Assembly: GCA_963922205.1 (NCBI GenBank)
Contig: CAWUHX010000064.1
Coordinates: 310,001-374,000, forward strand
Source of the DNA: Romanomermis culicivorax
Taxonomy: Eukaryota > Nematoda > Enoplea > Mermithida > Mermithidae
Length of the DNA stretch: 64,000 nt
Direction: 5' to 3'
Of this stretch, positions 4,301 to 64,000 are shown in pieces; the stretch's first letter is position 1; each line of letters starts with the position of its first letter. The notes under the pieces are model-generated. The model was not told the origin of the DNA. It searched no databases and saw only the letters and a list, made by a program, of their open reading frames with translations. Both the position numbers and the translations under genes were made by a program.

Positions 4301-4304
4301 ATAA

Positions 4305-6082: not shown

Positions 6083-6087
6083 TATTT

Positions 6088-23399: not shown

Positions 23400-23486
23400 G
23401 GCCACCCGACGGGTGAAAACTGTACATTTTGGTGTATATTTACGAGCACCATTTGTAAATAGTTTTTTGTAATAAATTGGACCTTC

Positions 23487-25270: not shown

Positions 25271-25279
25271 CAGAACGAT

Positions 25280-35165: not shown

Positions 35166-35211
35166 TCTTTTAATCTGGTCGTCCGTTCTTCCTTTTAATC
35201 TGGCCGTAAAT

Positions 35212-35314
35212 GAAGGTTGAACCTTCGACGAAGGTCATACCTTCGTTTCAAGTTTTGTTGTGCAATCCGAAGGTTGCAGCGAAGGTCCAACCTACCCGTG
35301 AAGGTCGTACCTTC
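35212..35314. promoter_or_regulatory. Cluster of GAAGGT-NNN-ACCTTC palindromes
   Basis: Three perfect 6-bp-arm palindromes with 3-bp spacers start at 35212, 35230 and 35300. Further single GAAGGT half-sites lie between and after them, and two TTGTGCAAYC repeats lie at about 35258 and 35328. The block sits 47-150 bp upstream of the start codon of the minus-strand 496-codon ORF, where promoter elements would be. The half-site AAGGTCA resembles nuclear-receptor sites. A regulatory role is inference. Confidence 0.5.
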
Positions 35315-41030: not shown

Positions 41031-42500
41031 ATGAAGTCAGAAGTTGATCTACCTTCACAGATTGAAAATAAGGTCCAAGCTGCATTTGAGAATGCCCTTG
41101 GGCTGCTCAACCAAAAGCTGGAGGCTATGAATGGCAGAAGGCACCCTCCTGTGTCCAGCTTCATGGCCCCTCCTGCCTTTTCAGGTGCTTTTGGTGAGTC
41201 CATAACCGATTTTATATCTCACTTGACCCCTTTCTTTACACTTCAAGGGGTAACAGAAGTGGATCATGCATATAAAATTCCGTTTTTGGAGTCTTGCCTC
41301 ACAGGTCCTGCTCTCACATCCTACCGGGACTTTAGCAGTGGTATTCCGCAGCCAACCCGCTATGAAGAGTTCATGGCTTTTCTGAGGAGAGACTTTCCAG
41401 TAGAGCCTGACTCAGATCCCCATCAGCAGTTGATCCAAGATCGCCTGCAGAAGCCGACTGAGTTCGTGATAGTCTACCTTGAGCACCTTAAGACACTGTC
41501 CAGGGTGGCTTATCCGTATCTCGCGACTGATGTTAGGGATTCTATTATAAAACCTATCTTTCTGAGAAGGTTGAGACCAGTCCTTCAGATAGTATTAAGT
41601 TCAGGGAGTTTGCAACTCTTGAGGAGACTCTTAAAGCAGCTTGTTATGCCGAATCGCAAATTTTTCGGGATGAGATTAGGTATACTGCCCCATCTAATGC
41701 TGTTTTCTCTTCAGAACAAAGGACCCCCGATAACATCAGGTCAATGTCGAATCAAAATGGCACCGCTCAACGTCCGTCGGCAACCCCCTCCGACGAGATT
41801 CGATGTTTACAATTGGAGATGGCCTGGCTCACGGCTCACGTTGCCCGACTTACAGCTCAGCAATCAGTGCGGCCTCTGAGAAATTCAATGCGGTCACCGA
41901 CACCATTGATGCGCGTCCGAAACCCTGGCGATCGCCCGTCAGGGGCACATTTACAGATGTGCTCCTACCATGGATGTTGCACCCACAACGAAGCTAATTG
42001 CGGGACCCAACATCCTGATAGCACCGGCCCTAGCACCGCCACGGCCACAGGCACCAGCCGTTGCTATTTTTGTCGAATGAGGGTGCACCCAACTGACGGA
42101 TACTACAGACCCTGCCCGCATTGCCGAAAATTACGAGTGCACAGGGCTATGGCTTGCCCAAATCGAAGTTGGACATTGCCTGCAGAGACTAACTTTGGTA
42201 ATTCTGGTTACTCTCCTCAGGGGGCAAGTGGAAAGTTTTGGCGTTATGCTAATCCAACTCTTCATGGGACAGGGAACCAATATTGGTCACCCACATAGCA
42301 AAATAATGCGGTAGGGGCTACCGACGGTCTTCTTCACCCAGATCTATTTGATCTGGATGATGAAGTTCTGGCTGAACACCTGGCGGATCGCTCACAACTG
42401 TGTTATCCTGTCTGTGTAATCAGTATTGGGTTTTCAGATGCCACAGTGGTTTCGGCGACTCTGTTGTCGACTTAGCCGCCACCTCCAGGGAAATACACGA
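41031..42500 (+). pseudogene. gag: Copy II gag (frameshifted)
   Basis: Starts at the ATG matching copy III (MKSEVDLPSQIENKV). The first 185 codons are open and match the capsid-like region: PPAFSGAFGESITDFISHL, DHAYKIPFLESCLTGPAL and HQQLIQDRLQKPTEFVIVYL. A one-base loss near 41.585 kb shifts the frame. A second frame (41744-42298) carries the zinc cluster (CSYHGCCTHNEANC; CYFCRMRVHPTDGY, last Cys replaced; CPHCRKLRVHRAMAC). Gag homology ends near 42.50 kb at the deletion junction. The segment upstream of the ATG is open without another start. Confidence 0.82.
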
Positions 42501-42502
42501 TG

Positions 42503-44290
42503 CTCATCAACGCTCCTGGGCTCTTCCAAGACCAGTTAGCAATGACCCCTTCAAGTTTTGCTTTTTTTAAACAGTACGTTTACAAAACTGAGCAAATTGA
42601 AGCAGTCTTGAACTGGTTGGCAAATTATATGGCTGGTTTATCCCTACAACCAGATACTCTGTATCAGGCGGTTGCAGGGGTAGGGACTGACATCAAAGCC
42701 TCACTGGAAGGTGTTGGTCTGGCAGCAAACCATGTGATTACTGGTCAGCAACACAACCTCATACAGGGCTTACAGTCTCTTTTGAGTGGACCAGTGCAAT
42801 TGATCTTTAACACCCTCATTGTCTTGGCAGTACTGGCCGGTACAGGATTTCTCACCTATGTTGGGATCTCCTATTACCTCAGTTACTGCCTGCCGAAAAG
42901 ACAGGTTCGGTTTGTTAGCCAATACTCTCCGTTGAACCTCCTCAGGAAAGTTCAGTGTTGGGTAGGTTTTCATTATGTACAGAACGATGTGCCAACTCAG
43001 TTAGACAGGATCACTCCGTGCTTTGTCGTACTGGTTGACCACAAGGAAACCCCTGCTTTCCTTGATACTGGTTGTCCATGGACCATCATCAGTCAATCCC
43101 TTCACAAAGTGCTGATTAAAGAGAGTCCGAAGGCAGCGATGGCTTTCCAGCAACATCACGACTTTAACCCATTGATGAGTATCAATGGTAAAGCCGTCCA
43201 TACATACTCTGCTTTCAGGACCGTATGAGATCATGTTGCCCGGAACCCATCAGCCACACACAAGAGTGGATATACCTCTCCATGCGTGTAAGACTACGTC
43301 TCCCTTTCGGGCACCAGTTGATCTGATTCTCAGATTGGACTTTCTAGAACAATTCCAGAATATTACCTTTGATTACCAACAACATGTCTGTTGGTTGAAT
43401 GCGGTAGAATTGCCACATCTTCTGACAACGGCTGAAATTGATCAGGTTGATCTTTGGTGGGAGAACACATGTTCACTATCAAGGGCCTCTTGATCAAGTC
43501 TCGATCAAGATCAAGGACTTCATCCATTTCTCAGCCACCATCGCGTGCTTCCTCCCTTGCCCCATCACTTGGGTCAACCAGAGGAAGCCGGACCTCTTCT
43601 AGACGGGCTAGTGGTCATTTTATGGCCAAGTCAGGGTCAAACTGTCCTCGACCCCCGCCTGGAAATTCTCGGGTTACACTAGAGAAAGGCTGTTTTTGCG
43701 AGCCTAGTGATTCTGATGCACCTGCATCCCCCGTGCTAGAGGTGCCACCACTCTCTAATGCTGAGGTCGAATCCCTAGGAGCTACTCAGAGCTCAGGAGA
43801 GAGATCAGATCATGTACTTACTGTTCAGGTTCATCCCACTCCTCGGACCGATCCGGAACCGTGGGTTGGTTAAGCTCTGGTAGGGTTAGTCCGATGCACT
43901 GGTTTGCCAATACCAAGACGAACACATGGGCCGGAGTCGAGTTTTGATGACTCCCTGCCTGATCCAGGTAATGTGGTGTCAGCTTTCTACCCCACCGAAA
44001 TGAGGACCCCTCATATCAAAGTTCTACTGAACAAAAGAAGCCAAGGCTCTAATTGGTACAGGAGCAGTTTTTTCGCTCCTGGATCACAAGTTGGAGGTTC
44101 AGTTCACAGAGACTAGGGCCCACCCTATAGCAGCAAATGGGTCCCCGATCCTACTGCTGGGCGCCGCCTATGTCACGGAGACAGTGGCTGATGTCTCTGA
44201 ACGTATACAGGTTCAAGTTCAAGAGAATTGTTCTGCTGAACTGGTCTTGGGGATGAACTTCCTCCAAGGTTCAATTGCGTCAGCTTGAAC
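42503..44290 (+). pseudogene. Copy II env C-terminus, membrane segment and two proteases
   Basis: At about 42.503-42.512 kb gag sequence passes directly into the last part of env (FQDQLAMTPSSFAFFKQYVYKT). The membrane segment (LIFNTLIVLAVLAGTGFLTYVG) is kept. The first protease follows in the same 242-codon frame: CFVVLVDHKETPAFLDTGCP. Frameshifts follow at about 43.2, 43.49 and 43.87 kb. The second protease has lost its DTG: the region reads ALIGTGAVFSLLDHKL only with frame changes, and Asp is replaced by Gly. It keeps LVLGMNFLQG. The env ectodomain is absent, so no entry glycoprotein could be made. Confidence 0.75.
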
Positions 44291-45534
44291 TGGGAGAAAT
44301 CCTTTTTTCAGTTCAAGGAACTTCGGGTTCCGTGTAAAGGCCTCATCCACAATCCTCCTTCTGCCGGTGAAGCACCATCCCTGCAGGAGTTGATTGTCCT
44401 TGAGCCTCGCTCGCTGACACAATTTACTGCACCTGTACCCTCAATATATGCAACTGTGCCCAAGGTAGCTTTCTTTCCTAAGCCTCTTTTGGGACAACAA
44501 GGCAGTGTTTATTTTGCTGGTACTGTGAGCACTGTGACAAATGGTTGCATACCCCTACAGGTAGTTAACCCAAGTACGCATCCAGTGGTTCTATACCCAC
44601 ACAGGACCATCCGTCATGTGCAGATGCACATTGATTCCCCACAGGGATGGGCAGTCAAGTCTGATACCATTCTTGACCGAAAGTGGGTTGAAGCAAATGC
44701 TGTGATATCTTCTGATATCTCCTTACAGGATAAAACAGTGTTGCTCGACCTGCTGGTTGCATTTACTGACCTCTATGCTATTGATGAAAAGGACACAGGT
44801 TCCACTGACCTAGGGCACCACTAGATCAGCACGGGTGGCGCTCGTCCAGTCCGCCATTTCCCTTACCACACCGCGCCCAAGGAAAAGGATCTCATCATAC
44901 AAGAAGTCAATGCGCTCCAGGAAAAAGGTATTATTCGGCCTAGCACCTCTCCCTGGACTACTAACACCATCCTGGTTCGCAAGGAAAATTGGTCACACCA
45001 GATGTGTGTGGACTTTCCTGGTCTTAACGAGGTCACGAAAAAGGATGTTTATCCTCTCCCACAGATTGATGATAGCCTGGACACACTCAAGGGTATGAAG
45101 TACTTTACTACCCTTGATCAGGCTAACGCCTACTGGTCTATACCTATTGCCGAGGCAGACAAAGAGAAAAGGGGGTTTAATTCGCCTATTGGACTTTAGG
45201 AGTTCAACTATCTGCCTTTTGGTCTTTGCAATGCACCTGGGATGTTTCAACGTCTCATGGATCTGCTTCTTACAGGATTGCAGTGGCGCACTGCACTGAC
45301 GTATCTCAATTACATCTTGGCGTTCAGGAACTCTCACACCCAGATGCTTAAGCGCTTGACGGATGTGTTTACACCTCTCCCTCAGGGTAGAATGATGCTC
45401 AGATAGAGCACGTGCAAGTTTTCGCACTCTGACGTAGAATATCTAGGTTACCGCATCTCACAGAACGGTCTAGAGCTGGATAAAGTCAAATTGGCTGCAG
45501 TCCAGGTTCTACCCATTCCACAAAACCTGGTCTT
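44285..45534 (+). pseudogene. Copy II linker and RT (inactive)
   Basis: A 179-codon frame covers the conserved linker between protease and RT (FFPKPLLGQQ...VSTVTNGCIPLQVVNPSTHPVVLYP). RT fragments follow: HQMCVDFPGLNEVTKKDVYPL and DQANAYWSIPIAEADKEK, then a stop at the same TAG as in copy I. The active site corresponding to YLDD reads YLNY near 45.30 kb, so catalytic aspartates are lost. A small deletion near 45.527 kb removes the connection segment before RNase H. Confidence 0.78.
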
Positions 45535-47178
45535 GTGTCTTATTATAGGCGTTTCATCCCTGGTCGCACTGGGCTCAGCGAGCCGCTGACCAAGCTCTTA
45601 GGGAAGGAAGTTACCTTCCTGTGGTCAAAACCTCAGCAAGCGGTGTTCGACGAACTCCGAAGGCTGTTGATGAACCCTCCTGTCCTCTGCCATCCAGACT
45701 TTACGAAATCCTTCATACTTCAAACTGATGCAAGTATTCCGGGAATAGGAGCAGTTCTGAGCCAGTTAGATGAAAAAGGGCACAACCATCCTGTTGCGTA
45801 CGCCAGTAGAGGGTTAAGGGCAGCTGAGAAGAACTACACTATTACGGAGTTAGAGACTTTTACTGTTGTCCATTTCGTCAAGCACTTTCGGCCTTACCTC
45901 TTTCAAGATGAGGTGGTCGTTCAGACTAATCACACTGCTGTTAAGGCTGTGTTGGAGAAATCCAACCCTTCGGCCCGGATAGCTCGGTGGGGTCTCGCCT
46001 TAGCTGAATTCAAACTGACAATTCGGCTGCGAAAAATTCCATCTAATGGTAATGCCGACACATTATCACGCCTACCTGATCCTAATTCCCTTGCCGGGGA
46101 GAGTATCGACGATACTCCCCTATACAGACCCGAGGGAGACATCATGATGATCTCCGATGGTGCTCAGCACCTGGCAAAACCATCTCAAAGGACCACGGAT
46201 GGTGCGCAGTGCCTGGCCGGGTCTGAGTCTTATGTAGAAATATCACAGGATGCGCAGCACAATGACCTTCTTGCAACTCAATTCGAGGATCCGGAATTAG
46301 CCTCCATTCTTAGGTCACTAAAACCCTACGGTGATCAGAATGATGTTAATGGCTACCACCTGTTGGATAACATCCTTCAGAAGTGGACAGGCGAGTCCAA
46401 CAAGATTGTTGTCCCTCGTTCAATAGTTACTACCATTATTGAGGCTCATCATAATGACATTCTTGCTGGACACTTTGATGCAAAACGTACCACCAGGCTT
46501 ATAGCCCCCAGGTACCACTGGCCTACCCTCAGTACGGAGGTCAAGTCCTCTTTTCAGTGGTGTGATCTTTGCCAATGGAATAAACCCGGGAGACAAAAGA
46601 CCCGTGCAACTCTGAAACGGATTTCCATTACAGGACCGTTTCATAGAGTCAGTGTCGACTGTATGGGACCAATGACCACTAGTGAAAGTGGAAACCGTTT
46701 TATTGTAGTCTTTATCGACTACTTTACCAAATGGGTTGAAGCTTTCCCTACTCTGGACATTACTGCCCGAACCATAGCTCAACCTTTTGTTACACAAATT
46801 GTCTGCAGACATGGGGCATCGCAGATTCTTCAGTCTGATCGTGGCACTGATTTCACGTCCAAACTGATGACTGAAATCACTGCCATTTGTTCAACTAATA
46901 AAATCCACTCAACCACTTATCACCTGATCACAAATGGTGAAGTGGAAAGAGCTAATCAAACGCTAGCTACACGGCTACGTATGTATGTCCACCAAGGTCA
47001 TATCGATTGGGATGAACACCTGCCGTATTCTGTGTTCGTGGTCAACATTAGCATGAATGAGTCCACAGGGTATTCACCCTTTGAGCTCATGTATAGTCGT
47101 ACCCCCATGCTACCTGTTGATGCGGCGCTCTCATTCAACTCTCCGGCCCATATCATAGATGTTTCTACTTATGATACA
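45535..47178 (+). pseudogene. Copy II RNase H-integrase ORF (3' cut)
   Basis: An unusually long surviving frame of 559 codons; the last 12 (to 47214) come from the adjoining insertion. RNase H shows ILQTDASIPGIGAVLSQLD and YTITELETFTVVHFVKHFRPYLF. The linker has degenerate DGAQHLAKPSQ repeats. Integrase shows HHNDILAGHFDAK and CDLC (zinc site), VDCMGPMTT (first Asp), QSDRGTDFTS (second Asp) and NGEVERANQ (Glu), then part of the C-terminal domain. The catalytic DDE set is intact although RT is dead and the C-terminal domain is truncated. Expression on its own would need a start at the Met of MSYYRRF, which is not native. Confidence 0.75.
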
Positions 47179-50601: not shown

Positions 50602-52022
50602 TGTCACATGCCGCTCAATTCTCCAACGTCAGGTGATTCCGATCATGCCGACATTTTGTTATTTTTCATGTTTCGTTTATTACTCGATCATGCTTTTGTT
50701 TATTTCATTTTTACCCATGCATTTTGTGTTCGTTTTTATATTATTATGCATTTCTATGTTTCGTTTTGTTGTATTTTTTATCTCTTTACAAACGCGGGCT
50801 ACAGTAGGCCCTTTAGCTAAAAACTTCCGCCAGTCGTGCTCCACGAGCACATGGCTATTTTTGGTGCGCTCACGCACCTCTTATCATCAAAAATTAGCGT
50901 CGTTTTTGTTACGCAAAACGACTAGCTAAGAAGTTTTAGCCGGCCTCAGTGCTAAACGCATGTGAATGAAAAAATGTCTATGTGCTCATAGGCATCTTCT
51001 GCATCGCGTCTAGCTGCAGAAGTTAGCTTGAGCGCCGAGAAACTCCGCCCAAGCTGCAGCTGTAGCCAAACATGTCCTTAAAAGGACATGTTTCTTTAGT
51101 TTTTCGCTCATTCTTGGGTTCACCAAGCTTTCGTCCGGTTGTCACTTCGCGTCCGCCGCCCTTCTTATTTTGCATATTTTTTATATACTCGACTGCGTCC
51201 GCCGCCTATTATTTTCAATAAATTTGCATACCTTTGCATTACTTACTGCGCCCACCGCTCACCGCCTACAGTACCCCCCTGTCCATCAGTGCCAGGTGTC
51301 CGACCGCCCCAGTTCGTGAATTAAACGTTGGAGTTTCGCCTCCCGCTCGCTCCCGCTCCCTCCCGCTCGCCGCCGCTCGCCGCCGCTCGCCGCCTAGGAC
51401 GTTCGAGGATCGCATCCCCCGCTCCCAGTGCCAGAAGACCGAAAACATCCAGGGACTTGCCGCCCGTTGCGCCGTAATCACTTGAGAAACAGGACTAGGT
51501 GAGTCTTCTCAGGGGATTATTGTTATTTGTGGGTTATTTGTTGGGAAATCCTTCCTAAGTCGGTTTCCCAAGGTCTCCACAGATAAGTAGGGCCTCCACC
51601 TCTCAGGTTCGGGCTAAAAGGGGCTGTCTGGTTCATAATCGGGCCCCATAGTTTAGGTCATTTTACGGGTGACCCTGTCCCCACTCTCACTGAGTAGGAC
51701 TCGGGGATTGTCGCACCTAGCCTGGCAGCGTTGTCCGTTACCCTACAGCAAGAGCCCAAGGACAACTCCAGAGAACCAACTATAGACCTCTCTATAGCCA
51801 CCATTTGCCAGGTTAGGCCCCAACGCCAACTTGGGAAGCCTGGGGAAAATGCCAGTATCCATCAGGAGTCACAGCCTATTACTCACTGTAATAGGATCAA
51901 TCTGATATGGTTCACCATCAATGTGACGTCTAAAACACGGTATTGCCTGATGAGATACCCAAACCTCTCCAGCTCCCCCAAAATAAACATGTCATACACG
52001 TGACATGGCGTAAAATGTGACA
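50602..52022 (+). repeat. LTR C (5' LTR of copy III)
   Basis: 1421 bp, TGTCACATGCC...AATGTGACA, same ends and layout as LTRs A and B. Conserved blocks include CTATGTG-x-x-CATAGGCATCTTCTGCA and AACTCCGCCCAAG. A stem-loop at 50899-50922 (GTCGTTTT/AAAACGAC) occupies the place of a different but equally paired stem in LTR A. A 22-bp near-palindrome around CCTTAAAAGG (51070-51091) holds the TATA-like sequence. AATAAA lies at 51217-51222. TGGCGAAAGTCTGGCA directly after the LTR is the putative primer-binding site. Confidence 0.88.
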
Positions 52023-55000
52023 TGGCGAAAGTCTGGCACTCGCCCTAAAGTGTAAAATCTTCACCCTTGGGTCGGAACTACCCCCAGGTCGGGTCAACTC
52101 CCATTTTAAGTCGGACAAGCCCCCTTAAAATTGGGCACTAGCCATGTAATAAGTCGGAGACCCCCCACATTCGGGTTTACTGCCTAATGGGTCGGGAATG
52201 TCCCTTATTTCGGATTACCGCTACTGTAGGTCGGCTACCTCCCCTCAATCGCGTATTATTACTGTAAGTCGGAAATTTTTCCCGTGCCACCAAGACTTAT
52301 TACTGTAAGTCGGGAATTTCTCCCTGAACATCAGATTTAATCACTGTAACACGGGATTTGCCCTTACGAGTGATCCAAATGTGATCTATATGTGTAAATA
52401 ATTATCTCATGTGTGTGTATTATCCCCTATGAGTAATAAATTCCCCATGGGTCGAGTTATTTATCCCCAGAGTCGTGTTAACTGTAACAGAGTTGAGTTA
52501 TATATCGAGTATTCTGTATTCCTCCTCTGATTCATACTGTACATTCTGCATACTTAATCTGTGTTGTAAACTACCTTATCTGTTTCTCTTCCCTCATCCC
52601 CCCCCCTTCCCTTACCCTGAATGGTATACTGTAGCCCTCCGGGTGGGTGCCATTACAGTACGCCTGTGCCCATTCCCGTACTGTAACTACAGTATACCCA
52701 TACGCGGGTACTGGTATCACAGCTGTAGGGGTTTACGGCCTCTCCTGACTGTTGGTGGTCCGTGACCCCATGATACAGTACACCCTCCACGTATGATTCT
52801 GGACGTCATACGTGGCTGCGATTTGTTAATTGTGTACAGTATTTTTGTCTGTCGGTGGAAACTGTCGGAATTGCTCACTTTTCCGGCCCCAAAAAAATTT
52901 TACACCGACTGTTTACACAATTAACACGCGTATGTCCAACTATCGTATTCCCCGTCTTCGGTTATTTTTCTTTCCCTTTTTCTTTCTCGGTCATCTGAGC
53001 GGTGTCAAAAAAAAAAAAAAAAAAAAAAATTTCGTTTTTTTCGGACGCCACCGCTACGGTATGACACCCTTACGTAAGTTCCTCTATCTTCTTCCTTTCC
53101 ACTTACTGTAAGGTCTTTCTCCTATTTTTCGGCCGTTGCATCACGGACATAGACTTTACGGGTCATGCTCTTTGACGTCAGCAACGACAACGTTACGGGT
53201 TGTTGTTGTTGTGTGGTTCAACCCCACGGATGCAACCACTCACGTCTGCAACAGCCGCTTCACTTGCTGTTGCTTTAAGGGGTGGGTAGCCCTCCGGGTT
53301 CTACTCCTGACGTCAGCAACCGACATTACGTGTTGTTGTTTAAGTTAACACTCCAGCAGTAATGACTTCTGACGTCTGCAACAGGTGAAGCCAACGTTGT
53401 TGCAACAGGTTCGGCTGGTTCTCTGCACCCCATCTGTGACGTCAGCAATGGTGACGCACCGTGTCACTATTCGAAGATGTGCAGGTCTTACGGGTGCCAC
53501 ATCTGACGTCTGCAACAACTGCATCTCATGTCATTGACTTAAGGTATCAGACCCTCGGTCCCACCTTCTGACGTCAGCAACGGCACCATCACGTGTTGCC
53601 GTATACCGATAGCTGGCTTCAGGGCCCTATTGCTGACATCAGCAATGACGATGTATCATGTTTTCGCAGCAGGAATTGAGGTTACATGATCCTATTTCTG
53701 ACGTCCGCAACGGTAACATTACGTGCTACTGCAGGGGTTTGCTGGCCTTAGGCACTCACCCCTGGCGTCTGCAACTGCGATATGATACTTGAATACTCTT
53801 ATCCCAGGCACCTGCAGTCAGCACCAAGGTCATGTGTTGGTTCATACCCCCTACCTTTTGACGTCCGCACCAGGTTACTGTCGGCCCTATGAGTATTCCA
53901 CTTGAGTTGTAGGTGGTCGTTGGCATATGGTCCTATCACCTACCTCTCTTGTCCAAGGGTTTGTGTGTGTCTGGGGGCTGATGCCTGGGAAACATCAGTC
54001 CACATATATACACCACCTGAGATGCTCACTAGCCTGCGTACTGATCAGGTTGTCCGCCCGGGTAGCGGCACTGTTGATCAGCACGTGGCTGTTTTTCAAG
54101 CTTTAACTGCAGGTTTGAACGAGTTACACTCGGCCTCAGCTGGGTTGGTTGTCTGACTCGGGCAGACAGCAGGCATTTGCAGTCGGTACTGCCTGTGTCT
54201 GACGTCTGCAAGGGTTTGGCAATCTTCTTGTAAATTTCTTATCTAAATTCACTCATTCTCTTTCATCTCATCGAGCTGCCATACATAGATCTTCTTTAGT
54301 GTCCCCGCCGTAGTGGTTCCCAAGGGACCGCGGCACAGCCTCCGGTTGGGCCTAGAGTGTATAGGACCCCCTGTCATATTACATTCACTCGAACGCCTTC
54401 GTTAACTGGCTTAACGATGCCCGCGCTAGAGTCGCCACTGACCCAGAGTCCGCCTCCGCGGTCCACCCTCTATTAGTCATGTAAGTAATAGGCACCGTTG
54501 AGTCCGCCTCAGCGAAGGTATTGAGTACGCCTCGATACATACTTTACACTCATATTCAATCAGGGACACCTTGTACCCGTGATCCCTTAGATGTTTTCGG
54601 GTGCGCCCTCAAAACATCCAGAGTATTTCATTTTAACTGACTGAGTGTGTCAGAATAGCACCCTTGGTACCCCTGCTCCTTCCCTCTTCTACTGTGTGAC
54701 CTGTGAACCTCACTTCATCTCAGTGATCGGCAAACCCGGCCACCAGCTGTGTATAATACTCCTGGAGAGTGTCCGTTCTGTTCGAAATGCGGGCTCCCGT
54801 TTCGGACACGGCTGTAAGTTACTTGCGAATGTCGTCCAACACGGAACCTCCTGTATAGTCCGTCTCACTATACAGAGATCGCAATCGCTCCTGGCGAGTG
54901 AGGCCCGTTGCGTAACTGCGCGACTCCCTTTGCGTAACTGGTGTTGTAAATTAGTTTTGTCCCTATTTATTGCTCCCTCTTAAGTTCATTTTCAGTTGAC

Positions 55001-55649
55001 CCCATCCTTTTCACCTCATGCCACTTTATGCGCTACTCCTGGTGAGTAGGATCTTGCCGGCTACGAGTCCGCCTCGCCCCAAGGTTTGTAAACTAGTACA
55101 GCGGTCGAACCTCCAGGAAAAATCCCTCCTGAGCGGGTTCATCCGTCACCTTATTTCCCGGCAGGAAAACCGCCTCTTCTCTACTTTTACATTTGATCTT
55201 CTGTCCTCTTCATCTATTCTAATTGCCGGGTCCAGGCCCCAATCCTACACTTTGGTCGGGATCGATTCCCCCATATCTCAGGCCATGCCTCGGTCCATCA
55301 CGGGCGACCAGATAAATTCCCTTCTGCGTCACCCTGATGTACTCTGATCTTACATCTTATAATCCTATTCCATTCTAGCTCCCTTTCCGTGGTCGCTAGT
55401 CTTAAGCTAAATCAATTTACGTCACAAACGCCGTCGCGCACGCGTTTTCCGAATTCACGCGCTCTTTCGCCGCGAATTCAAAAGTAGTACTCACCTTCAT
55501 CTTACACAATAGAGACACCCCGTCGTTCCTGCCGTCTCAGTACCCAGCCTGTACAGACCAGTGGGCCGCTCTCTATTCAATTTGACTTAATTGCATCACG
55601 GGCAAGGACGTCTGTTCTAACCACCTTACGGGAAAACGAACCCTCGGAC
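52023..55649 (+). other. Copy III long 5' leader
   Basis: 3.6 kb of non-coding sequence between LTR and gag. It opens with a ladder of repeated phrases of the type (T)ACTGTAAGTCGGGAATTTCTCCC and GGGTCGGAA/ACCCCC (52.03-52.5 kb), then a pyrimidine-rich stretch, a run of 23 A (near 53.01 kb) and the hairpin array. The last 1.8 kb is conserved with copy II, including GGTTGTCCGCCCGGGTAGCGG and TCACTTCATCTCAGTGA. The gag frame is open from about 55488, without an earlier ATG. Confidence 0.78.
53174..53830 (+). repeat. TGACGTCA-hairpin array, copy III
   Basis: About ten tandem but diverged units with TGACGTCAGC, TGACGTCTGC or TGACGTCCGC followed by a stem-loop. Examples of stems: AACGACAAC.../...GTTGTTGTT, GCAACAGC/GCTGTTGC, AATGGTGAC/GTCACTATT and ACGGCA/TGCCGT. 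The unit order parallels that in copy II, but many stem bases differ, mostly in paired fashion. Confidence 0.82.
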
Positions 55650-58018
55650 ATGAAGTCGGAAGCTGATCTCCCTTCACAGATCGAGAACAAAGTCCAGGCA
55701 GCATTTGAGAATGCTCTTGGACCCCTCAACCAAAAGTTAGAGGCCATGAATGGTCGGAGGCACCCTCCCGTGTCCAGCTTTATGGCCCCTCCCACCTTCT
55801 CCGGTGCTTTTGGTGAGTCTATCACCGATTTTATGTCGCATCTTACTCGTTTCTTTACACTCCAGGGTGTAAGCGAAACGGATCATGCGTATAAAATCGC
55901 TTTTCTGGAGTCATGCCCCACGGGTCCTGCTCTCGCCTCCTACCGGGACTTTAGCAGCAGCACTCCAATACCTACCCGCTACGAAGAGTTTACGGCTTTT
56001 CTACGGAGAGATTTTCCGGTAGGGCGCGACTCTGACCTGCATCAGCAGCTGATCCAAGATCGACTGCAGAAGCCGACAGAGTCCGCGATAGTCTACCTTG
56101 AGCACCTCAAGAGACTATCCAGGGTAGCGTATCCAGATCTCGCGACGGATGTCCGAGATTCTATCATCAAACCTATCTTTCTGCGGGGACTGAAGCCGGT
56201 CCTCCGAGATAGTATCAAGTTTAGGGAGTTCACGACTCTTGAAGAGACACTCAAGGCAGCCTGTTACGCAGAATCCCAAATCTTTCGGGACGAGATCCGG
56301 TACACTGCTCCATCTAACGCCGTTTTCTCTTCAGAACCTAAACACGCCGGATATAATCCCGAAATGCCTAACAGAAGCGCAAACGGTCGTCAGAGCAACG
56401 CTCCAACGTCGTCATCCTCCGCCGATGAGGTTCGCCCCTTGAAACAGGAAATGGCCAGGCTCACGGCCCACGTAGCGAAGCTCACGGCCCAGCAACGTGC
56501 ACCCACGCCAATCCAACAGACGCCGCCTCCACAGCCGTCGACACCAAATCAGTCCGCCGGGCGACGCTCGTCAGGAGCACACCTCCAAACGTGCTCCCTC
56601 CACGGACTGTGTACACATAGCGACGCCGACTGCCGGGCCCAGCATCCCACCGGTGCCGCTCCCGGTAACAACGCCGCTAACGGTGGTCGCTGTTATTTTT
56701 GCCGTACAGGTGCCCACCCCACGGACCGATGTGATAGGCCATGCCCTTATTGTCGTCAAGTGCGAGTGCACCGATCAACTGCCTGTCCGCAGCGCAATCC
56801 GGCAAACGCGGGTGAGAATGACTACCAAAATACTGGTTATTCTTCCCAGGGGACAAATGTGTATCATCAAATAAATGGTTATCACCCTCCTAACGGGATG
56901 GGGAACCAATATCGGCAGCCCATACGCCGCAACAACGCCGTTGGGGCTCCCGATGGCCCTCCTCATCCAGATCCTCTTGATCTGGATGATGAGGCACTTG
57001 CTGAACACCTGACAGATCCTTCACAACAGTGTTATCCTGTCTGCGTAATCAGTATCGGCTTTTCAGTGGTCCAAGCTGCCCAGGTACCCGTACCGATGAA
57101 CGTATCAGACATACCGCTGCCACCACCACCACCAAGGTATGCAATGCCGGTCACCCTGGACCCCTCAACGACACCGCAGTTTGTTGGCCACGCTAACATC
57201 TCAGTCTACGACTCTATCGATTTCTTGTTCACAGCGCCATCGCCCGTCCAAGACGCGATGTTGGCCATCTGGTCAGTTGACCTGGCCAAGAAATACCCGC
57301 ATTTGCCGTGGACTCTGCTCAACGAGCCATCGCATGTCGAAGCGCTCACAGCTGCCGACGTGGTGCTTGCGGCACCTGTATCAATGCGACTCTTACGACC
57401 CGACGTGGCCCGACGGGCACTCGAGTTCATTGCCAATGGGACTATCACAATCTCGCCCATCGAGAAGTTCTTATTGGATGGGGAGCCATCCTCGCCTTCG
57501 GTCGATGCCGTCCGCCGAGCAGTCGAACAGGCCAGTTGGATCCTCCTGCCTGCTGTCGCGGCCACATCACCGACAGCAGCGCCTCTGTTGCCGCTACACC
57601 GCCAACAGAAATGGACATTACTGCTTCCTCGCCTCCGGCTAAGGAACCCGCAAATGATCCTACATCGCCGGCAACAGCCCAAACCACACTGTCGGCACCA
57701 GCCCAAAGTACACCGTCGGCACCAGCCCAACATACATCATCGGCAACAGCCCAAACCAAATCGCCGGCGCCAGCCCAAGAGACATCTCCGACCGCTGCGA
57801 CCAAGTCGCCCCTCGTCGAACACATGGCCGTCGACGAGATCTTACGTCCGGTTAACGAAGATGTCAGCATTGTTGAGGAATCTCTGTTCCCAACGGCAGT
57901 CGCCCCACGGTCGCCAAAAGTCGGTATCCTCCGGGAAATCCACCCGTGTGGTGGATTGGTCCTCGATTTCCCCGGCCAGGAACCCATCTCGTCTGACAGC
58001 GACGAAGAAGAAATCTGA
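55650..58018 (+). CDS. gag: Copy III Gag
   Basis: First ATG of a frame open since about 55488; the same Met starts gag in copy II. Residues 1-210 form the capsid-like region (PPTFSGAFGESITDFMSHL; FLESCPTGPALASYRDF; LEHLKRLSRVAYPDL). A zinc-binding cluster starts near residue 315: CSLHGLCTHSDADC, then CYFCRTGAHPTDRC, then CPYCRQVRVHRSTAC. Next come an acidic DLDDEALAEHLTD segment and a C-terminal domain (AIWSVDLAKKYPHLPWTLLNE...RRALEFIANGTI). Around 57.59 kb homology to copy I passes from this frame to the -1 frame, which carries five 8-residue APAQ-type repeats and an acidic end (SSDSDEEEI, TGA at 58018). So the natural Gag end needs either a frameshift or correction of an indel; the original frame itself stays open into env. 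Confidence 0.82.
57669..57788 (+). repeat. 24-bp coding minisatellite in gag tail
   Basis: Five tandem 24-bp units (CGGCACCAGCCCAAAGTACA-type). They encode the 8-residue APAQxTxS repeat in the -1 frame and a basic His/Arg/Gln/Pro repeat in the env-pol frame. Copy I has no such expansion. Confidence 0.8.
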
Positions 58019-58046
58019 CACTGCCCCTCAGGCCAGATTTGTGAAA

Positions 58047-59800
58047 ATGTGTGAACACTTACAAACCACGTTTGTACAGTTGTTTTTGATAATAAAATTG
58101 ACCTTGGTAACATCACTGTTTCTAGGGGTGAGTTTGTCAGCACCGGCGGCTCAGTATCAATTTTGTGGTCTCTCAAGAAGCGGACATCCACTTGAGTTAC
58201 CCCAACGTGTAGAGTGTAAACCACCGCAATCTTCATGGAGCCCGCGGCGCATGAACGTTATGGTGTATGTCCCTAGCTCAGACCTGATTACAACCACAGC
58301 CTGGAAATACACATTGCGCACCCACAAAGTCTGCACCAACACTGGTTTCTTCGGCTCTAGGGGCATTACTGCAGACGTCATTACCACTCAGCACTTAGCG
58401 CCTGCGGCCTGCACGCTAGCACATCCCACTAAGATGTTTGGCTCACAAAAACTTGTCGGCATTCGCCCTGGCTTTTATAGCACAAACCAAACATTGGAAG
58501 TGATGTACGAATGGTGCTGCAGCGACGTCTGCAAGACAGTGACTAACCTCTTCATCGAGGAGGGACAAGTCGCTTCGTGGGACGGCACTACGGCCTTAAG
58601 CACCTTAGGCGATGTAGGTGGATGCAGTCCCACTGCAGGCCAGTGCACTACTCTAGACGGGGTCATTGTCTGGCCTGCACAAAACTTCACGGCGCGGTGT
58701 CATTATCACCCCAAGGGAAATTACACTGCGTCCATGTCGGGGAACCACGTCATCATCGATGATCTACAGGTTGCCCTCAAGATCCCGGGAAACTCCCGTG
58801 TCTTCCAACTGTGCCCAGAACTACGTTCCACCACAGTCCGGACGGATCAGGGTCTTCTCCTTCGCATCCACGGGAGATACAATTTGACCCAAAACTTGTT
58901 CAGAGTGGCAACGGACAGCCGTCCCGATCCTGTCAATGCCAAACTGAACTATCTGGCTCAGCAGATCAAGGAGTCGGAAATTAACGGTTTCCGGTTCACG
59001 TGGCTTGAGCTCTGCTCTCACGCTCAACGCTATCTTGATCTGACTTGGCAGTTGCTTCGCTTCGACCCTACCCTGGGTGCCCGGGCATTCCTCCAGAGGA
59101 ATGACCTGACGGCGGAATTCACAGGCGATGCGCTGACAATATGGCCGTGTCAGAAGGTCAACGCCACCTACGTTTATCACTCGTACCGGGTGGGGAACGT
59201 TTGCTACAAGTACTTACCTGTACAGGTTGGCGGCACCATCTACTTCGCCACCCCCGGTGGTCCGGATCTCATTAGATCTAGCCCAATTGTGCCGTGTCAT
59301 CACCACTTTACAGGGATTTTCCGAAATCGCTCGGGCTGGTTTACTGAGTCTGGCGCGGTCCATGTGAGCCACATCCCACTGGAACTCTTCTGGAAGCAGC
59401 GTTTCAACATCACTCACTTTGAGGCACCGGCGCTCTTCCATGACCAGTTGGCGATGACCCCTTCAAACTTTGCCTTCTTTAAACAGTACGTTTACAAGAC
59501 TGAGCAAATTGAAGCGGTATTAAACCGGCTGGTAAACTTTACCGCTGGTCTATCCCTGCAACCAGACGCCATCTACCAGGCCTTTGCAGGGGTAGGAACC
59601 GACATCAAGGCCTCTCTGGAAGGTGTCGGTTTGGCAGCAAACCATGTTATTACGGGTCAACAACACACCCTCGCCCAGGGCTTGCATGCTGTCCTCAGCG
59701 GGCCGGTCCAGTTGATCTTTAACATCCTAATTACCCTGACAGTGCTGATCGGTGCCGGATACCTTGCCTATCTTGGTGTATCTTATTATCTCAGTTACCG
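58047..59800 (+). other. env: Copy III Env-like glycoprotein domain
   Basis: Signal peptide with hydrophobic core LFLIIKLTLVTSLFLG and a likely cleavage before or in AQYQFCG. The ectodomain of about 520 residues holds many cysteines, including HKVCTNTGFFG, WCCSDVCKTVTN and GQCTTLDGVIVW, and N-glycosylation sequons such as NFT, NYT, NLT and NAT. A helical membrane-proximal part (QYVYKTEQIEAVLNRLVNF; ASLEGVGLAANHVITGQQHTL) resembles the heptad/stem region of viral fusion proteins in position. The anchor LIFNILITLTVLIGAGYLAYLG is followed by a basic stretch (RLRSKQVRFVSR), consistent with a cytoplasmic start. I cannot assign it to a fusion-protein class by eye. Confidence 0.72.
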
Positions 59801-62800
59801 TCTGCGGAGCAAACAGGTCAGGTTTGTTAGCCGTTTCTCCCCGTTGGGTCTTTACCGTAAAGTCCAACGCTGGATCGGTTTTCACTACGTGCAAAACGAT
59901 GTGCCCTCCCAGCTTGACCGAATCACACCGTGCTTCGTCGTGCTGCTGGACACCAAGGAAACTCCTGCTTTCCTTGACACGGGTTGCCCACGTACTATCA
60001 TTAGCCAACGTCTTCATAAGGCCTTGGCTAAAGAAAGTCCGAAGGCGGTCATGGCGTTCCAGCAACATCACGACTTTAACCCATTGATGAGCATCAATGG
60101 TAAAGCCGTTCATACCATCCTTTCAGGACCATATGAAATCATGTTGCCCGGAAACCGCCAGCCGAACACACGGATCGATGTACATCTCCATGTGTGCAAG
60201 ACTACGTCTCCCTTCTGGGCACCTGTTGACCTCATACTCGGACTGGACTTCTTAGAACAGTTCAAGAACATTATGTTTGACTACCAATGTAATGTTTGTC
60301 GGCTGGACGCGGTAGAATTACCCCTCCTGCTGACCACGCCGGAGATTGACCAGATCGACCCCTGGTGGGAGAACACTCGTGCTCTCTCGCGAAACTCACA
60401 CAGGTCGGGATCACGATCGCGGTCCAGGGCTTCGTCCATCTCTCCGCCACACTCACGGGCCTCCTCAGTCGCCTCATCACGTGGGTCAACTAGGGGATCC
60501 CGGGCCTCTTCTAGACGGGCAAGTCGTCATCTGTCGACCTTGCACGGGTCAGGTTGCCCTCGACCTCCGCCTGGAACCTCTCCAGTTACGCTAGAGAAGG
60601 GCCGATACCGTGAGCCAAGTGATTCAGATGCTCCGACATCACCCGTGCCGAACGCGCCTCCGCTATCGGACACCGAGGTTGAATCGCTAGGAGCTACTCA
60701 GAGTCCGAAGGATCACTCAGACCACGTACTAACGGTGCAGGATGAGTCCACCCTTCTGAATGACCCGGAACCCTCCGTCGGATACGCTCTAGTAGGTCTT
60801 CTACGTCGTACAGGACTGCCGATTCCAAAGCGGTCCGGTAAGACCAAACACGCTAGTGGTGCCACCACACCTGATTCCGGTCATGTGGTCACCGCTTTTT
60901 ACCCAAATGATATTCGGACACCCCATATCAAAGTTCTCCTCAACAACTGGGTAGAAGCGAAGACACTGGTCGACACAGGAGCTGTTTTCTCACTCCTGGA
61001 CCACAAGTTAGCGGCCCAGCTGCCCAACTTGTCACTATCACCAACCAGGGCACGCCCTATTGCAGCCAATGGGTCCCCGATCCCACTGCTAGGAGCAGCC
61101 TACATCACAGTTACAGTGGCTGATGTCTCTGAACGGATTCAGGTCCAAATACAGGAGAACTGTTCAGCTGAACTGGTCCTTGGAACCAACTTCCTTGGCC
61201 GGTTCAATTGTGTCAGCTTGAACTGGGAGAAATCCTTCCTCCAGTTCAAGGAAAATAGAATTCCCTGTGACGGTCTCATCCACAGTCCACCTTCTGCCCG
61301 CGGCGCTTTGCCCCTGAAGGACTTGGTGATTCTAGAGCCTCGCTCCCTGACACGATTCACTGTCCCTGTCCCACCAATCTATACGAGCTTGCCTGAGGTG
61401 GCCTTCTTTCCGAAGCACCTCACCGGATCTCAAAGACACGTATATTTTGCTGGAAGCGTGAGTACCGTGACCAACGGTCACATACCACTTCAGGTAGTCA
61501 ACCCGAGTACTCATTCGGTGGTTCTCTACCCACACACGACCATCGGTCATGTGCAGATGCATAGTGAGCCCTCACGGGAATCACCGGTCGACTCAGACAC
61601 CGTCCTCGACCGTCAGTGGGTCGAAGCCAATGCTGTAATCTCACCGGACATCTCCCCTCGGGACCGGGCAGCCTTACTCGATCTGCTGGTTGCATACACC
61701 GACCTTTATGCTCTTGATGAAAAGGACACAGGTTCCACTGATCTCGTCCAGCACGAAATCAGCACGGGCGATGCCCGCCCAGTCCGCCGTTTTCCTTACC
61801 GGTCCTCACCTAAGGAAAAGGATCTCATCATGCAGGAGGTCAAGGCGCTCCAGGAGAAAGGTATTATTCGGCCCAGCACGTCTCCGTGGGCTACTAATAC
61901 CGTCCTGGTGCGCAAGAACAACGGTTCTCACCGTATGTGTGTTGACTTTCGTGGTCTTAACGAGGTCACGAAAAAGGATGTCTACCCTCTCCCGCGGATA
62001 GATGACATCCTCGACACACTCAAGGGTATGAAGTATTTCACTACCCTTGACCAGGCTAACGCTTATTGGTCAATCCCGATTGCCGAGGCCGATAAGGAAA
62101 AGACGGCTTTTAACACGCCTATTGGACTTTACAAATTCAATTACTTGCCTTTCGGTTTATGCAACGCGCCAGGGACATTTCAACGCCTTATGGACCTCCT
62201 CCTTACTGGAATCCAATGGCGCACGGTTCTGACTTATCTCGACGACATTTTGGTGTTCGGGAACTCTCACACCCAAATGCTTGAGCGCCTGGCAGATGTG
62301 TTCGCCCGTCTTCGCCGGGATGGAATGAAGCTCAGACTGAGCAAGTGCAAATTCTCGCACTCAGAGGTAGAATACCTAGGCTATCGCATCTCACAGAGCG
62401 GCCTAGAACCTGACCAAGCCAAGCTGGCCGCCGTCCAAAACCTACCCATTCCACAAAACGCCAAAGACATCAAGTCCTTCCTAGGCCTCGTGTCTTACTA
62501 CAGGCGTTTCATCCCTGGTTGTGCCCGGCTCAGCGAGCCACTCACCAAGCTCTTACGGAAGGAAACTACTTTCCAGTGGTCAAAACCTCAGCAGGAGGCG
62601 TTCGATGAACTCCGCCGCCTGCTGACCAACCCTCCTATCCTGCGCCATCCGGACTTTTCGAAATCCTTTATCCTTCAAACTGATGCAAGTATTTCGGGGA
62701 TAGGAGCGGTTCTTAGCCAGTTAGACGAACATGGATACGACCATCCTGTCGCGTACGCCAGCCGAGGGTTAACAGCGGCCGAGAAAAACTACTCCATTAC

Positions 62801-64000
62801 AGAACTGGAGACTCTCGCTGTTGTCCATTTCGTCAAGCACTTTCGACCATACCTCTTCCAGCACGAGGTGGTCGTTCAGACTGACCATACCGCGGTCAAA
62901 GCAGTGTTGGAGAAGCCTAACCCCTCTGCTCGGATCGCTCGGTGGGGACTCGCGCTCGCCGAATTCAAACTGACAATTCGGCCGCGAAAAGGTCAGTCTA
63001 ATGGTAATGCTGACACATTATCACGCCTGCCGGATCCTAACTCCCTCACCGGTCAGAGTATTGATGATACTCCCCTCTACAGACCTGAGGGGCACGTTAT
63101 GATGATCACCGATGGTGCGCAGCACCTGGCGCGATCCAGGACCTTGACCGATGGTGTGCAGCACCTGGCGCGTTCAAGTAATTCAGCACCGATCACTGTT
63201 GGCGCGGAGCGCCCGGTACGATCAGAGTCTTATGCCGAGATATCCGTCGGTGCGCAGCACCCCGACCTTTTCGCTGCTCAGCTGGAGGATCCGGAATTAG
63301 CCAACATCATTCGCTCTCTTAAGCCTCTGGGCGACCAGAATGATGTGCGAGGCTACCATCTGTTGGATAACGTTCTTCAGAAATGGACAGGCGAGTCCAA
63401 TAAGATCGTCATACCCAGATCCATGGTTACTACCATTATCCGGGCTCATCACGATGACATCTTAGCTGGACACTTCGGTGCTAAACGTACTGCGCGGCTC
63501 ATTGCTCGCAGGTACCACTGGCCCTCCCTCAGTCGGGATGTAAAGTCCTTCTGTCAGCGGTGTGATCTTTGCCAACGGAATAAGCACGCTCGAAAGAAAA
63601 CCACTGCGACCCTGAAACCTATCACCATCACGGGACCGTTTCACCGGGTAGGTGTCGACTGCATGGGACCAATGACCACTAGCGAAGCTGGCAACCGTTT
63701 CATCGTAGTCTTTATCGACTACTTTACGAAATGGGTCGAAGCTTTTGCTACTCCGGACATCACTGCGCACACCATTGCCCGGCTGTTTGTAACGCAAATT
63801 GTCTGCCGGCACGGGGCACCGCAGATTCTTCAGTCAGATCGTGGCACTGATTTCACATCAAAACTGATGACTGAGATCACTGCGATCTGCGCAACGAAGA
63901 AAATCCACTCTACCGCCTATCATCCGATGACCAACGGCGAAGTGGAAAGAGCTAATCAGACGCTAGCCACACGGCTACGTATGTATGTTCATCAAGGACA
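58047..64000 (+). CDS. env-pol: Copy III Env-Pol polyprotein (3' incomplete)
   Basis: A single frame without stops from ATG 58047, 28 nt after the Gag-tail TGA, to the window end (over 1980 codons). Order: signal peptide (residues 1-35), Cys-rich ectodomain (36-555), membrane segment (556-581), protease 1 (DTG at 644, LGLDF at 732), Ser/Arg-rich linker, protease 2 (DTG at 976, LGTNF at 1046), RT (YLDD at 1397), RNase H (first Asp at 1546), and integrase (zinc site, Asp 1871, Asp 1931, Glu 1967). If translated as one chain, Env would be inserted in the ER membrane with Pol on the cytosolic side. The frame is also continuous with the Gag N-terminal frame. The start at 58047 is chosen because it directly precedes the signal peptide. 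Confidence 0.85.
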   Translation, partial: MCEHLQTTFVQLFLIIKLTLVTSLFLGVSLSAPAAQYQFCGLSRSGHPLELPQRVECKPPQSSWSPRRMNVMVYVPSSDLITTTAWKYTLRTHKVCTNTGFFGSRGITADVITTQHLAPAACTLAHPTKMFGSQKLVGIRPGFYSTNQTLEVMYEWCCSDVCKTVTNLFIEEGQVASWDGTTALSTLGDVGGCSPTAGQCTTLDGVIVWPAQNFTARCHYHPKGNYTASMSGNHVIIDDLQVALKIPGNSRVFQLCPELRSTTVRTDQGLLLRIHGRYNLTQNLFRVATDSRPDPVNAKLNYLAQQIKESEINGFRFTWLELCSHAQRYLDLTWQLLRFDPTLGARAFLQRNDLTAEFTGDALTIWPCQKVNATYVYHSYRVGNVCYKYLPVQVGGTIYFATPGGPDLIRSSPIVPCHHHFTGIFRNRSGWFTESGAVHVSHIPLELFWKQRFNITHFEAPALFHDQLAMTPSNFAFFKQYVYKTEQIEAVLNRLVNFTAGLSLQPDAIYQAFAGVGTDIKASLEGVGLAANHVITGQQHTLAQGLHAVLSGPVQLIFNILITLTVLIGAGYLAYLGVSYYLSYRLRSKQVRFVSRFSPLGLYRKVQRWIGFHYVQNDVPSQLDRITPCFVVLLDTKETPAFLDTGCPRTIISQRLHKALAKESPKAVMAFQQHHDFNPLMSINGKAVHTILSGPYEIMLPGNRQPNTRIDVHLHVCKTTSPFWAPVDLILGLDFLEQFKNIMFDYQCNVCRLDAVELPLLLTTPEIDQIDPWWENTRALSRNSHRSGSRSRSRASSISPPHSRASSVASSRGSTRGSRASSRRASRHLSTLHGSGCPRPPPGTSPVTLEKGRYREPSDSDAPTSPVPNAPPLSDTEVESLGATQSPKDHSDHVLTVQDESTLLNDPEPSVGYALVGLLRRTGLPIPKRSGKTKHASGATTPDSGHVVTAFYPNDIRTPHIKVLLNNWVEAKTLVDTGAVFSLLDHKLAAQLPNLSLSPTRARPIAANGSPIPLLGAAYITVTVADVSERIQVQIQENCSAELVLGTNFLGRFNCVSLNWEKSFLQFKENRIPCDGLIHSPPSARGALPLKDLVILEPRSLTRFTVPVPPIYTSLPEVAFFPKHLTGSQRHVYFAGSVSTVTNGHIPLQVVNPSTHSVVLYPHTTIGHVQMHSEPSRESPVDSDTVLDRQWVEANAVISPDISPRDRAALLDLLVAYTDLYALDEKDTGSTDLVQHEISTGDARPVRRFPYRSSPKEKDLIMQEVKALQEKGIIRPSTSPWATNTVLVRKNNGSHRMCVDFRGLNEVTKKDVYPLPRIDDILDTLKGMKYFTTLDQANAYWSIPIAEADKEKTAFNTPIGLYKFNYLPFGLCNAPGTFQRLMDLLLTGIQWRTVLTYLDDILVFGNSHTQMLERLADVFARLRRDGMKLRLSKCKFSHSEVEYLGYRISQSGLEPDQAKLAAVQNLPIPQNAKDIKSFLGLVSYYRRFIPGCARLSEPLTKLLRKETTFQWSKPQQEAFDELRRLLTNPPILRHPDFSKSFILQTDASISGIGAVLSQLDEHGYDHPVAYASRGLTAAEKNYSITELETLAVVHFVKHFRPYLFQHEVVVQTDHTAVKAVLEKPNPSARIARWGLALAEFKLTIRPRKGQSNGNADTLSRLPDPNSLTGQSIDDTPLYRPEGHVMMITDGAQHLARSRTLTDGVQHLARSSNSAPITVGAERPVRSESYAEISVGAQHPDLFAAQLEDPELANIIRSLKPLGDQNDVRGYHLLDNVLQKWTGESNKIVIPRSMVTTIIRAHHDDILAGHFGAKRTARLIARRYHWPSLSRDVKSFCQRCDLCQRNKHARKKTTATLKPITITGPFHRVGVDCMGPMTTSEAGNRFIVVFIDYFTKWVEAFATPDITAHTIARLFVTQIVCRHGAPQILQSDRGTDFTSKLMTEITAICATKKIHSTAYHPMTNGEVERANQTLATRLRMYVHQG
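59880..61270 (+). other. Tandem aspartic-protease-like domains
   Basis: Domain 1: CFVVLLDTKETPAFLDTGCPRTIIS, then HDFNPLMSINGKAVHT and LILGLDFLEQF. Domain 2: HIKVLLNNWVEAKTLVDTGAVFSLL, then RPIAANGSPIPLLGAAYITVTV and LVLGTNFLGRF. Each has the beta-strand-DTG, flap-like and second-hairpin LG-x-[DN]-F pattern of retropepsins. Between them is a Ser/Arg-rich stretch (HRSGSRSRSRASS) and a Pro-rich linker. A retropepsin acts as a dimer of one DTG chain, so two per polyprotein is unexpected. Both are also present in copy I, and their LG-x-x-F blocks survive in copy II. Confidence 0.78.
61690..64000 (+). other. pol: Copy III RT, RNase H and integrase domains
   Basis: RT: RRFPYRSSPKEKDLI, HRMCVDFRGLNEVTKKDVYPLP, LDQANAYWSIPI, LPFGLCNAPGTFQRLMD, TYLDDILVF and LGYRIS. 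RNase H: DFSKSFILQTDASISGIGAVL, YSITELETLAVVHFVKHF, QTDHTAVKAVL and NGNADTLSRL. A linker with DGAQHLARS repeats follows. Integrase: HHDDILAGHFGAKR with CDLC, VDCMGPMTT, DYFTKWVEAF, QSDRGTDFTS and NGEVERANQ, with 35 residues between the second Asp and Glu as in DD35E enzymes. The domain order (RT-RH-INT) and sequence style place it in Ty3/gypsy (Metaviridae). The integrase C-terminal domain lies outside the window. Confidence 0.9.

Follow-up and report, generated by a model that had tools for sequence, protein, structure and literature searches.

We analyzed a 64,000-nucleotide stretch of the genome of the mermithid nematode Romanomermis culicivorax (GenBank assembly GCA_963922205.1, contig CAWUHX010000064.1, positions 310,001 to 374,000 of the forward strand; hereafter the window), in which a retroelement of Ty3/gypsy type with long terminal repeats (LTRs), here called element III, carries an envelope-like gene (env) between gag and pol. 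Element III spans window positions 50602–66602 and thus extends past the window end. A single frame without stop codons runs from 55488 to 63998 (2,837 codons) and is open at the window end; its stop codon starts at window-equivalent position 64614, in the contig sequence that follows, and the frame thus covers 55488 to 64613. Encoded in this one frame are, in order, Gag, a signal peptide, an ectodomain, a membrane anchor, two protease-like domains, reverse transcriptase (RT), RNase H and integrase. The window holds three related elements, copies I, II and the more distant element A; these and further lineages across the host genome (A to D) are described below. The features of element III, with Pfam matches from a run on the frame cut into separate pieces, are:

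50602–52022, plus strand: 5' LTR with TG..CA ends (96.2% identity over 1468 to the 3' LTR by blastn)
52023–55649, plus strand: leader, about 3.6 kb long and reaching from the 5' LTR to Gag, starting with a primer-binding-site-like TGGCG..
55650–56972, plus strand: Gag, a Ty3-like capsid and a Cys/His-rich nucleocapsid (Ty3_capsid 2.7e-6, slightly below the curated cut-off; weak Retrotrans_gag), also found in copies I, II and A
56973–58046, plus strand: Gag-Env linker, open in the Env frame
57590–58018, plus strand: C-terminal part of a conserved open reading frame (ORF) in the -1 frame, stop at 58016–58018
58047–59849, plus strand: Env (PF24664)
59850–60299, plus strand: PR1, first retropepsin-like domain, in frame after the Env tail, DTG at about 59976 (Pfam aspartic protease E 0.0034, below cut-off)
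60300–60878, plus strand: Ser/Arg-rich linker between PR1 and PR2, with no Pfam match
60879–61400, plus strand: PR2, second retropepsin-like domain, DTG at about 60972, common to lineages A–D (gag-asp_proteas 1.2e-7)
61599–63140, plus strand: RT and RNase H of Ty3/gypsy type (RVT_1 2.3e-35; RT_RNaseH_2 4.9e-37)
63300–64000, continuing to 64613 past the window, plus strand: integrase (Pfam)
65136–66602 in window-equivalent positions (1136–2602 of L065): 3' LTR with TG..CA ends

A preliminary description, made from the letters alone, had read one stop-free frame carrying signal peptide, Cys-rich ectodomain, anchor, protease, RT, RNase H and integrase, and the frame and the Pfam pieces agree with it. 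The extent that it gave, 55650–64000, was too small, as the LTRs lie at 50602–52022 and 65136–66602, and a 4-bp target duplication, ATTG, flanks the element on both sides. The presence of Gag in the same frame, the class III kinship of Env, the pair of protease-like domains and the -1-frame ORF over the linker go beyond that description.

The LTRs with TG..CA ends, the short target duplication, the Ty3-type capsid and the order protease (PR), RT, RNase H (RH), integrase (IN) are all traits of the Metaviridae, and by its Pfam matches and its similarity to mostly unnamed RTs element III is a Ty3/gypsy (Metaviridae-type) retroelement. The Pfam matches (among them gag-asp_proteas, RT_RNaseH_2 and Integrase_H2C2) included none of the families that we take to mark BEL-type elements, and no RT relatives were found in the viral contigs searched. 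An env downstream of integrase, as in errantiviruses, was not found between the pol stop and the 3' LTR: these are separated by about 520 nucleotides, from which the longest stop-to-stop frame has 177 codons and enters the LTR, and the element therefore lacks an env-sized 3' ORF.

One protease domain is present in lineages A–D and two in copies I, II and III. Within 59850–61400, the distant lineages show only the second domain of the pair, and lineage C has DCG there. A homologue of the Env-tail/PR1 part was not found among 64 candidates.

The signal peptide (about 58080–58136, hydrophobicity 2.23) and the anchor (about 59712–59768, 2.14) assigned to Env are the two strongest hydrophobic segments of the frame and are the segments so named in the preliminary description. 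Between them lies an ectodomain of about 525 residues with 15 cysteines and eight N-glycosylation motifs. A profile search, which that description had proposed as a check, matched the window Env to PF24664, the Monjiviricetes fusion glycoprotein, at 5.5e-14; all six Env proteins compared (five lineages and a database protein, P0001) scored 50.7–70.9 bits against this family, for which the cut-off is 27. We take the chuvirus glycoproteins to be kin of PF24664. Weak side matches were also seen: five of the six proteins matched Borna G in this way, and there were further such matches to a rhabdovirus G domain and to herpesvirus glycoprotein B (gB).

A profile of nine rows, built from the five lineages and P0001, was run against solved structures, and its five best chains were four named gB and one named ORF8, which is presumably also a gB. 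The best match to gB had a whole-sequence E value of 3.2e-5 and 0.0075–0.008 for the best single stretch, in the central region. Because this profile finds gB at 3.2e-5, we consider that Env is, by sequence, a class III-type fusion protein. Speaking against this kinship, the window Env alone matched bacterial adhesins first (0.019) and gB at 0.21, and one lineage B Env alone found nothing. A structure prediction from 11 rows (window pieces and P0001) had a mean predicted local distance difference test score (pLDDT) of 37.7, too poor, and was not used. One other relative of Env (38%, 536 residues) was present among the best 7,995 word-sharing candidates of a database of 5.8 billion proteins, and none was found in the viral and prokaryotic contigs searched.

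The order Gag, Env and then parts of Pol is common to element III and its three relatives in the window:

6510–10867, plus strand: element A, of a distant lineage, whose Gag and Env occupy frame 3, interrupted by in-frame stops, and are followed by RNase H and integrase
21679–29330, plus strand: copy I, of the same lineage as copy II and with the same order, carrying stops and indels
41031–46998, plus strand: copy II, with the same order, Env internally deleted, indels and stops, and relatives at 89–94% identity

Element A has lost protease and RT, and repeats of 238 bp (5848–6085 and 12115–12352, 88.7% identical) flank it. The Env of copies I and II is 77–79% identical to that of element III. 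Between the window copies, the ratio of nonsynonymous to synonymous substitution rates (dN/dS) was 0.05–0.27 for the Gag, Env, PR1, linker, PR2, RT and integrase pieces, the integrase of copies I and II excepted. PR1 gave 0.05–0.06 against copies I and II, the linker between PR1 and PR2 0.13–0.26, and the Env anchor and tail adjoining PR1 0.27. Parts of the leader of element III (52023–55649) are about 70–75% like the leader of copy II.

We searched this genome (359 Mb) for further copies. A search with an Env piece gave 148 scored matches (of 3,237 first-look candidates) at 98–100% identity, 71 of which sit in open frames of at least 3,042 residues. For the lineage of which copy II is the type (lineage II), 150 of 2,761 candidates were scored as matches, and 15 of the 150, counted by hand, have open frames of 3,014–3,018 residues. 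With open frames in near-identical copies of lineage III and in copies of lineage II, the sequences indicate that the family is one that was amplified while the frame was open. The same counts, together with the recurrence of the order in several divergent lineages, make it barely credible that the single frame is a product of chance or of misassembly, a thought to which the altered linker of the window copy would otherwise lend itself.

A search with PF24664 gave 68 scored matches (of 2,320 candidates) in the host genome, every one of them over the cut-off, and none in 14 control genomes. The Env of lineages A (that of element A), B, C and D is about 34–46% identical to the window Env, and the signal peptide, 15–16 ectodomain cysteines and the anchor recur in five lineages. 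Frames were read in 16 of 30 excised loci of the distant lineages. In lineage B, Gag, linker, Env and protease share one open frame in L035 and L047, L054 stops at the anchor, and the C337 copy is open from Gag to the start of integrase (Gag-Env-PR-RT-RH), its integrase being broken. L039 and L043 of lineage C keep an open frame all the way, and in the C382 copy it extends from Gag to the end of integrase; L031 (whose assignment is less certain), L033 and L034 are interrupted. In lineage A, L050 and L055 stay open from the nucleocapsid across Env and into the protease, L037 stops at the anchor, and L044, L053, L059 and L060 are interrupted; the capsid lies in another frame in the one copy of which the capsid was read and shares frame 3 with Env, with stops, in element A of the window. 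In L038 of lineage D the linker, Env and protease are open and Gag is in the same frame with one stop between.

Env thus runs in frame into the protease in all six lineages inspected, in line with the earlier claim that env lies between gag and pol and is fused in frame to pol. Gag runs in frame into Env in five of the six; the sixth (D) is compatible with this but interrupted. For lineages III and II the continuity was taken from the frame length and from reading the Gag-Env stretch. Stops between env and protease were sought among the relatives, and L037, L054 and L059 stop at or near the anchor; each has a sibling without the stop, which is therefore not a shared feature. With Env proteins as diverged as those of copies I and II and of lineages A–D, the common order can be regarded as a lineage trait, as had been proposed from copies I, II and element A.

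For the region between Gag and Env, the order given in the preliminary description held, and the picture of the linker needed amendment: at 57.2–58.05 kb the window copy is atypical, its sister copies holding an extra segment there and a conserved ORF in the -1 frame. Length changes in the window copy alter the frame-3 residues, and the middle of its linker carries residues that the sisters read in the -1 frame. The -1-frame ORF has about 205–254 codons (window 57219–58018) and an acidic C-terminus, with homologues in L011–L030 and L068 from two lineages (III and II); no Pfam match to it was found. A lineage II copy, chosen for its 3,018-residue frame, has the same two overlapping frames as lineage III.

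Selection on the two frames differs. Between the window copy and copy I, the Gag tail is conserved in frame 2 (dN/dS 0.14) but not in frame 3 (1.12), and a comparison of a lineage III copy with a lineage II copy gave 0.16 for the -1-frame ORF and 1.21 for the frame leading from Gag into Env (the through frame), from which it follows that the through frame is at most a linker there. Polymorphisms shared within lineage III were 44 synonymous and 24 nonsynonymous in the -1 frame. In the through frame they were 10 synonymous and 58 nonsynonymous with no stops, an absence that is subject to the bias with which the copies were selected, and one stop was present among the singletons.

The through frame nonetheless stays open against the odds. 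In one representative each of lineages III and II it has no stops over the -1-frame ORF, where the third frame has four and three. The probability of such an open frame was 0.0003 (lineage III) and 0.0001 (lineage II) under a codon-usage null, and 0.026 and 0.0016, respectively, when each sequence was shuffled among its own synonymous codons; an earlier look at the last 142 codons alone in the window copy had given 0.054 and 0.50. Among 20 sister copies, the Gag capsid-nucleocapsid shares the Env frame in 18 (the exceptions being L011 and L021), the Env frame is without stops over the overlap in 18, and it is open from before Gag into Env in 15; the -1 frame is without stops over the overlap in all 20 and the third frame has three to six. 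The conservation of the Gag tail in the -1 frame had suggested that Gag and Env are continuous in the window copy by accident only. This idea was dropped, because the through frame is open in many sister copies, and the frames of the other lineages and the null tests also speak against it. Taken together, these results mark the -1-frame ORF as a real gene and make it probable that the through frame is kept open to let translation run on from Gag into Env.

We also considered whether Gag of lineages II and III has its true C-terminus in the -1-frame ORF, reached by splicing or frameshifting, with Env-Pol made as a separate product. Its dN/dS of 0.14–0.16 against 1.1–1.2 for the through frame and the preponderance of synonymous shared polymorphisms would fit this, as would its stop 29 nucleotides ahead of the Env Met in the window copy and the situation in copy I, where the homologue of the ORF is in the Env frame together with its stop and the through frame has five stops. 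However, no slippery heptamer for -1 frameshifting was found in the stretch searched, the Env frame itself goes from Gag into Env in the A, B and C copies read, and the through frame is open despite the low odds of this. In addition, the ORF fits equally well an accessory protein from a spliced message, which is perhaps what it encodes: an acceptor-like TGATTTCTTG[T/C]T[C/T]ACAG, also written GATTTCTTG[T/C]T[C/T]ACAG, lies near its start in both lineages, with an alternative acceptor-like TCGATTTC.. near the start in the first. We therefore regard its use as the end of Gag as improbable.

The reading that we favor, with moderate confidence, is that element III is expressed as a single Gag-Env-Pol polyprotein, which contains an internal signal peptide and is processed by the protease of the element. 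Because a class III-type glycoprotein sits between nucleocapsid and protease, the genomic RNA would encode one Gag-Env-PR-RT-RH-IN chain. Gag would be made by ribosomes in the cytosol, the internal signal peptide would direct the growing chain to the endoplasmic reticulum, the ectodomain would be synthesized in the lumen until the anchor halts transfer, and protease and polymerase would be made on the cytosolic side. Since the predicted topology places Gag and Pol in the cytosol and Env in the lumen, Gag and Pol would be tethered to the same side of the membrane, with Env on the other. The hydrophobic segments allow this topology, and in five lineages the net charge past the anchor, on the cytosolic side, is +2 to +7 as against 0 to +1 before it. 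The alphavirus structural and flavivirus polyproteins likewise begin with the capsid, followed by an internal signal peptide and glycoprotein, and are then cleaved; release of the parts by the element's own protease and signal peptidase would resemble this, and the excess of Gag would have to arise from some source. The likeness is one of logic only, as these are different viruses, without reverse transcription. We hold as evenly balanced the fuller proposition that the element follows such an alphavirus-like logic throughout, with a capsid, an internal signal peptide, a class III glycoprotein, an anchor, protease and polymerase in one chain that crosses the membrane a single time. Env and polymerase would then be joined at birth, copackaged at a fixed ratio and released by the element's protease, and two of the lineages would have a second, overlapping -1-frame gene within the Gag-Env linker.

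Several observations weigh against a single chain. Over the overlap the through frame lacks conservation at the protein level (dN/dS 1.21), the shuffle among own codons reaches only P 0.026 for lineage III, and both representatives and the 20 sister copies were chosen with a bias to open or long frames. Copy I, which is old and decayed, has five stops in the through frame of the overlap and no stop within the -1-frame ORF; four of the five are at places to be expected of CpG decay. In lineage D, Gag and Env share a frame in one of three copies, with a stop between; L045 and L051 do not have this stop, and the two show different length changes at this place. The integrase of copies I and II gave a dN/dS of 0.72, and several dS values between the window copies are near saturation. 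The charge ahead of the signal peptide is positive in only some of the lineages (+3, +3, -1, 0, +2), and lineages D and C have a Met 12–40 residues before the signal peptide. A particle that requires an excess of Gag would also not usually be built from Gag, Env and Pol in equal amounts.

A further alternative is that Env or Env-Pol is translated from a spliced message in which a 5' leader exon, possibly including the Gag start codon, is connected with an acceptor immediately before the signal peptide; the open Gag-Env frame would then be a side effect or serve Pol only. Retroviral and errantiviral env is spliced, the 3.6-kb leader could contain a donor, a Met is near the signal peptide in lineages D and C, and a scan of the 420 nucleotides leading to the Env start in the window copy showed two acceptor-like sites. 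By the crude rule used, however, no acceptor-like site was found in the 400–450 nucleotides scanned in lineages II, B and D, and the single sites in C and A are at unrelated distances; such sites occur about once per 323 nucleotides in the window anyway, which makes the argument from acceptors weak. In favor of the single chain, 20 of 25 distinct sister copies lack a Met at the position of the Env Met of the window copy, and the copies read of lineages A, B and II have none shortly before their signal peptide. Splicing would not require an open Gag-Env frame shared by several lineages, and Pol would still be fused behind Env. On balance, we consider this alternative unlikely, and the single Gag-Env-Pol chain remains our preferred reading.

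Other sequences in the window were noted. Repeats of 1.44 kb at 30421–31857 and 35535–36974 (91% identical) probably represent the LTR at the 3' end of copy I and that at the 5' end of copy II, and the likeness of copy II to copy I stops near 47176. On the minus strand, 33675–35234 is an open frame of 519 codons between copies I and II, 16955–19484 is a remnant of another Ty3-like element (integrase and RT matches of about 31–34%), and 4304–4375 is a tRNA by Rfam (32.5 bits) without an ARAGORN call. A search of the host genome for SL1 RNA found no match, and as the 14 control genomes gave none either, it says nothing on the host.

Env-bearing reverse-transcribing elements are described as Gag-Pol-Env, and their Env expression is usually uncoupled from that of Pol. 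Element III resembles the Metaviridae and errantiviruses (gypsy) in its Ty3-type capsid, RT, RNase H, integrase, LTRs and an env gene, and differs in that its Env sits between Gag and protease, in frame. As far as the available portions of the cited sources go, the Metaviridae profile of the International Committee on Taxonomy of Viruses (ICTV) places Env, where present, downstream of integrase; the Env-like proteins of roo, Tas and Cer-7 lie downstream of the polyprotein (PMC7642597), as does ORF3 downstream of pol in rotifer elements (PMC5408684). Atlas virus, a hookworm belpaovirus (PMC9094657), similarly has one stop-free polyprotein of 2,828 residues that includes Env, but in the order Gag-Pol-Env, with a C-terminal, class II, phlebovirus-like Env and a belpaovirus RT. 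Anakin, a mosquito element with a chuvirus glycoprotein (PMC7642597), is likewise an LTR element whose glycoprotein comes from a family of negative-strand RNA viruses, but is a BEL-Pao element. Cer1 of C. elegans has no stop between gag and pol, and its extra protein CERV, from a spliced message (PMC10309623), is a possible parallel to the -1-frame ORF. A Gag-Env-Pol order in retrotransposons was not found in the literature searched, which left most subscription papers and preprints outside and is no proof of priority.

These findings add a Ty3/gypsy-type carrier to the class III-like fusogens acquired by LTR elements. They raise the questions of how a signal peptide can act from an internal position about 800 residues along a chain, how an excess of Gag arises, and whether the polymerase is first made tethered to a membrane. 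A large, recently active lineage with Env in the middle shows that the Gag-Pol-Env order is not forced, and that a glycoprotein may be coupled to the polymerase.
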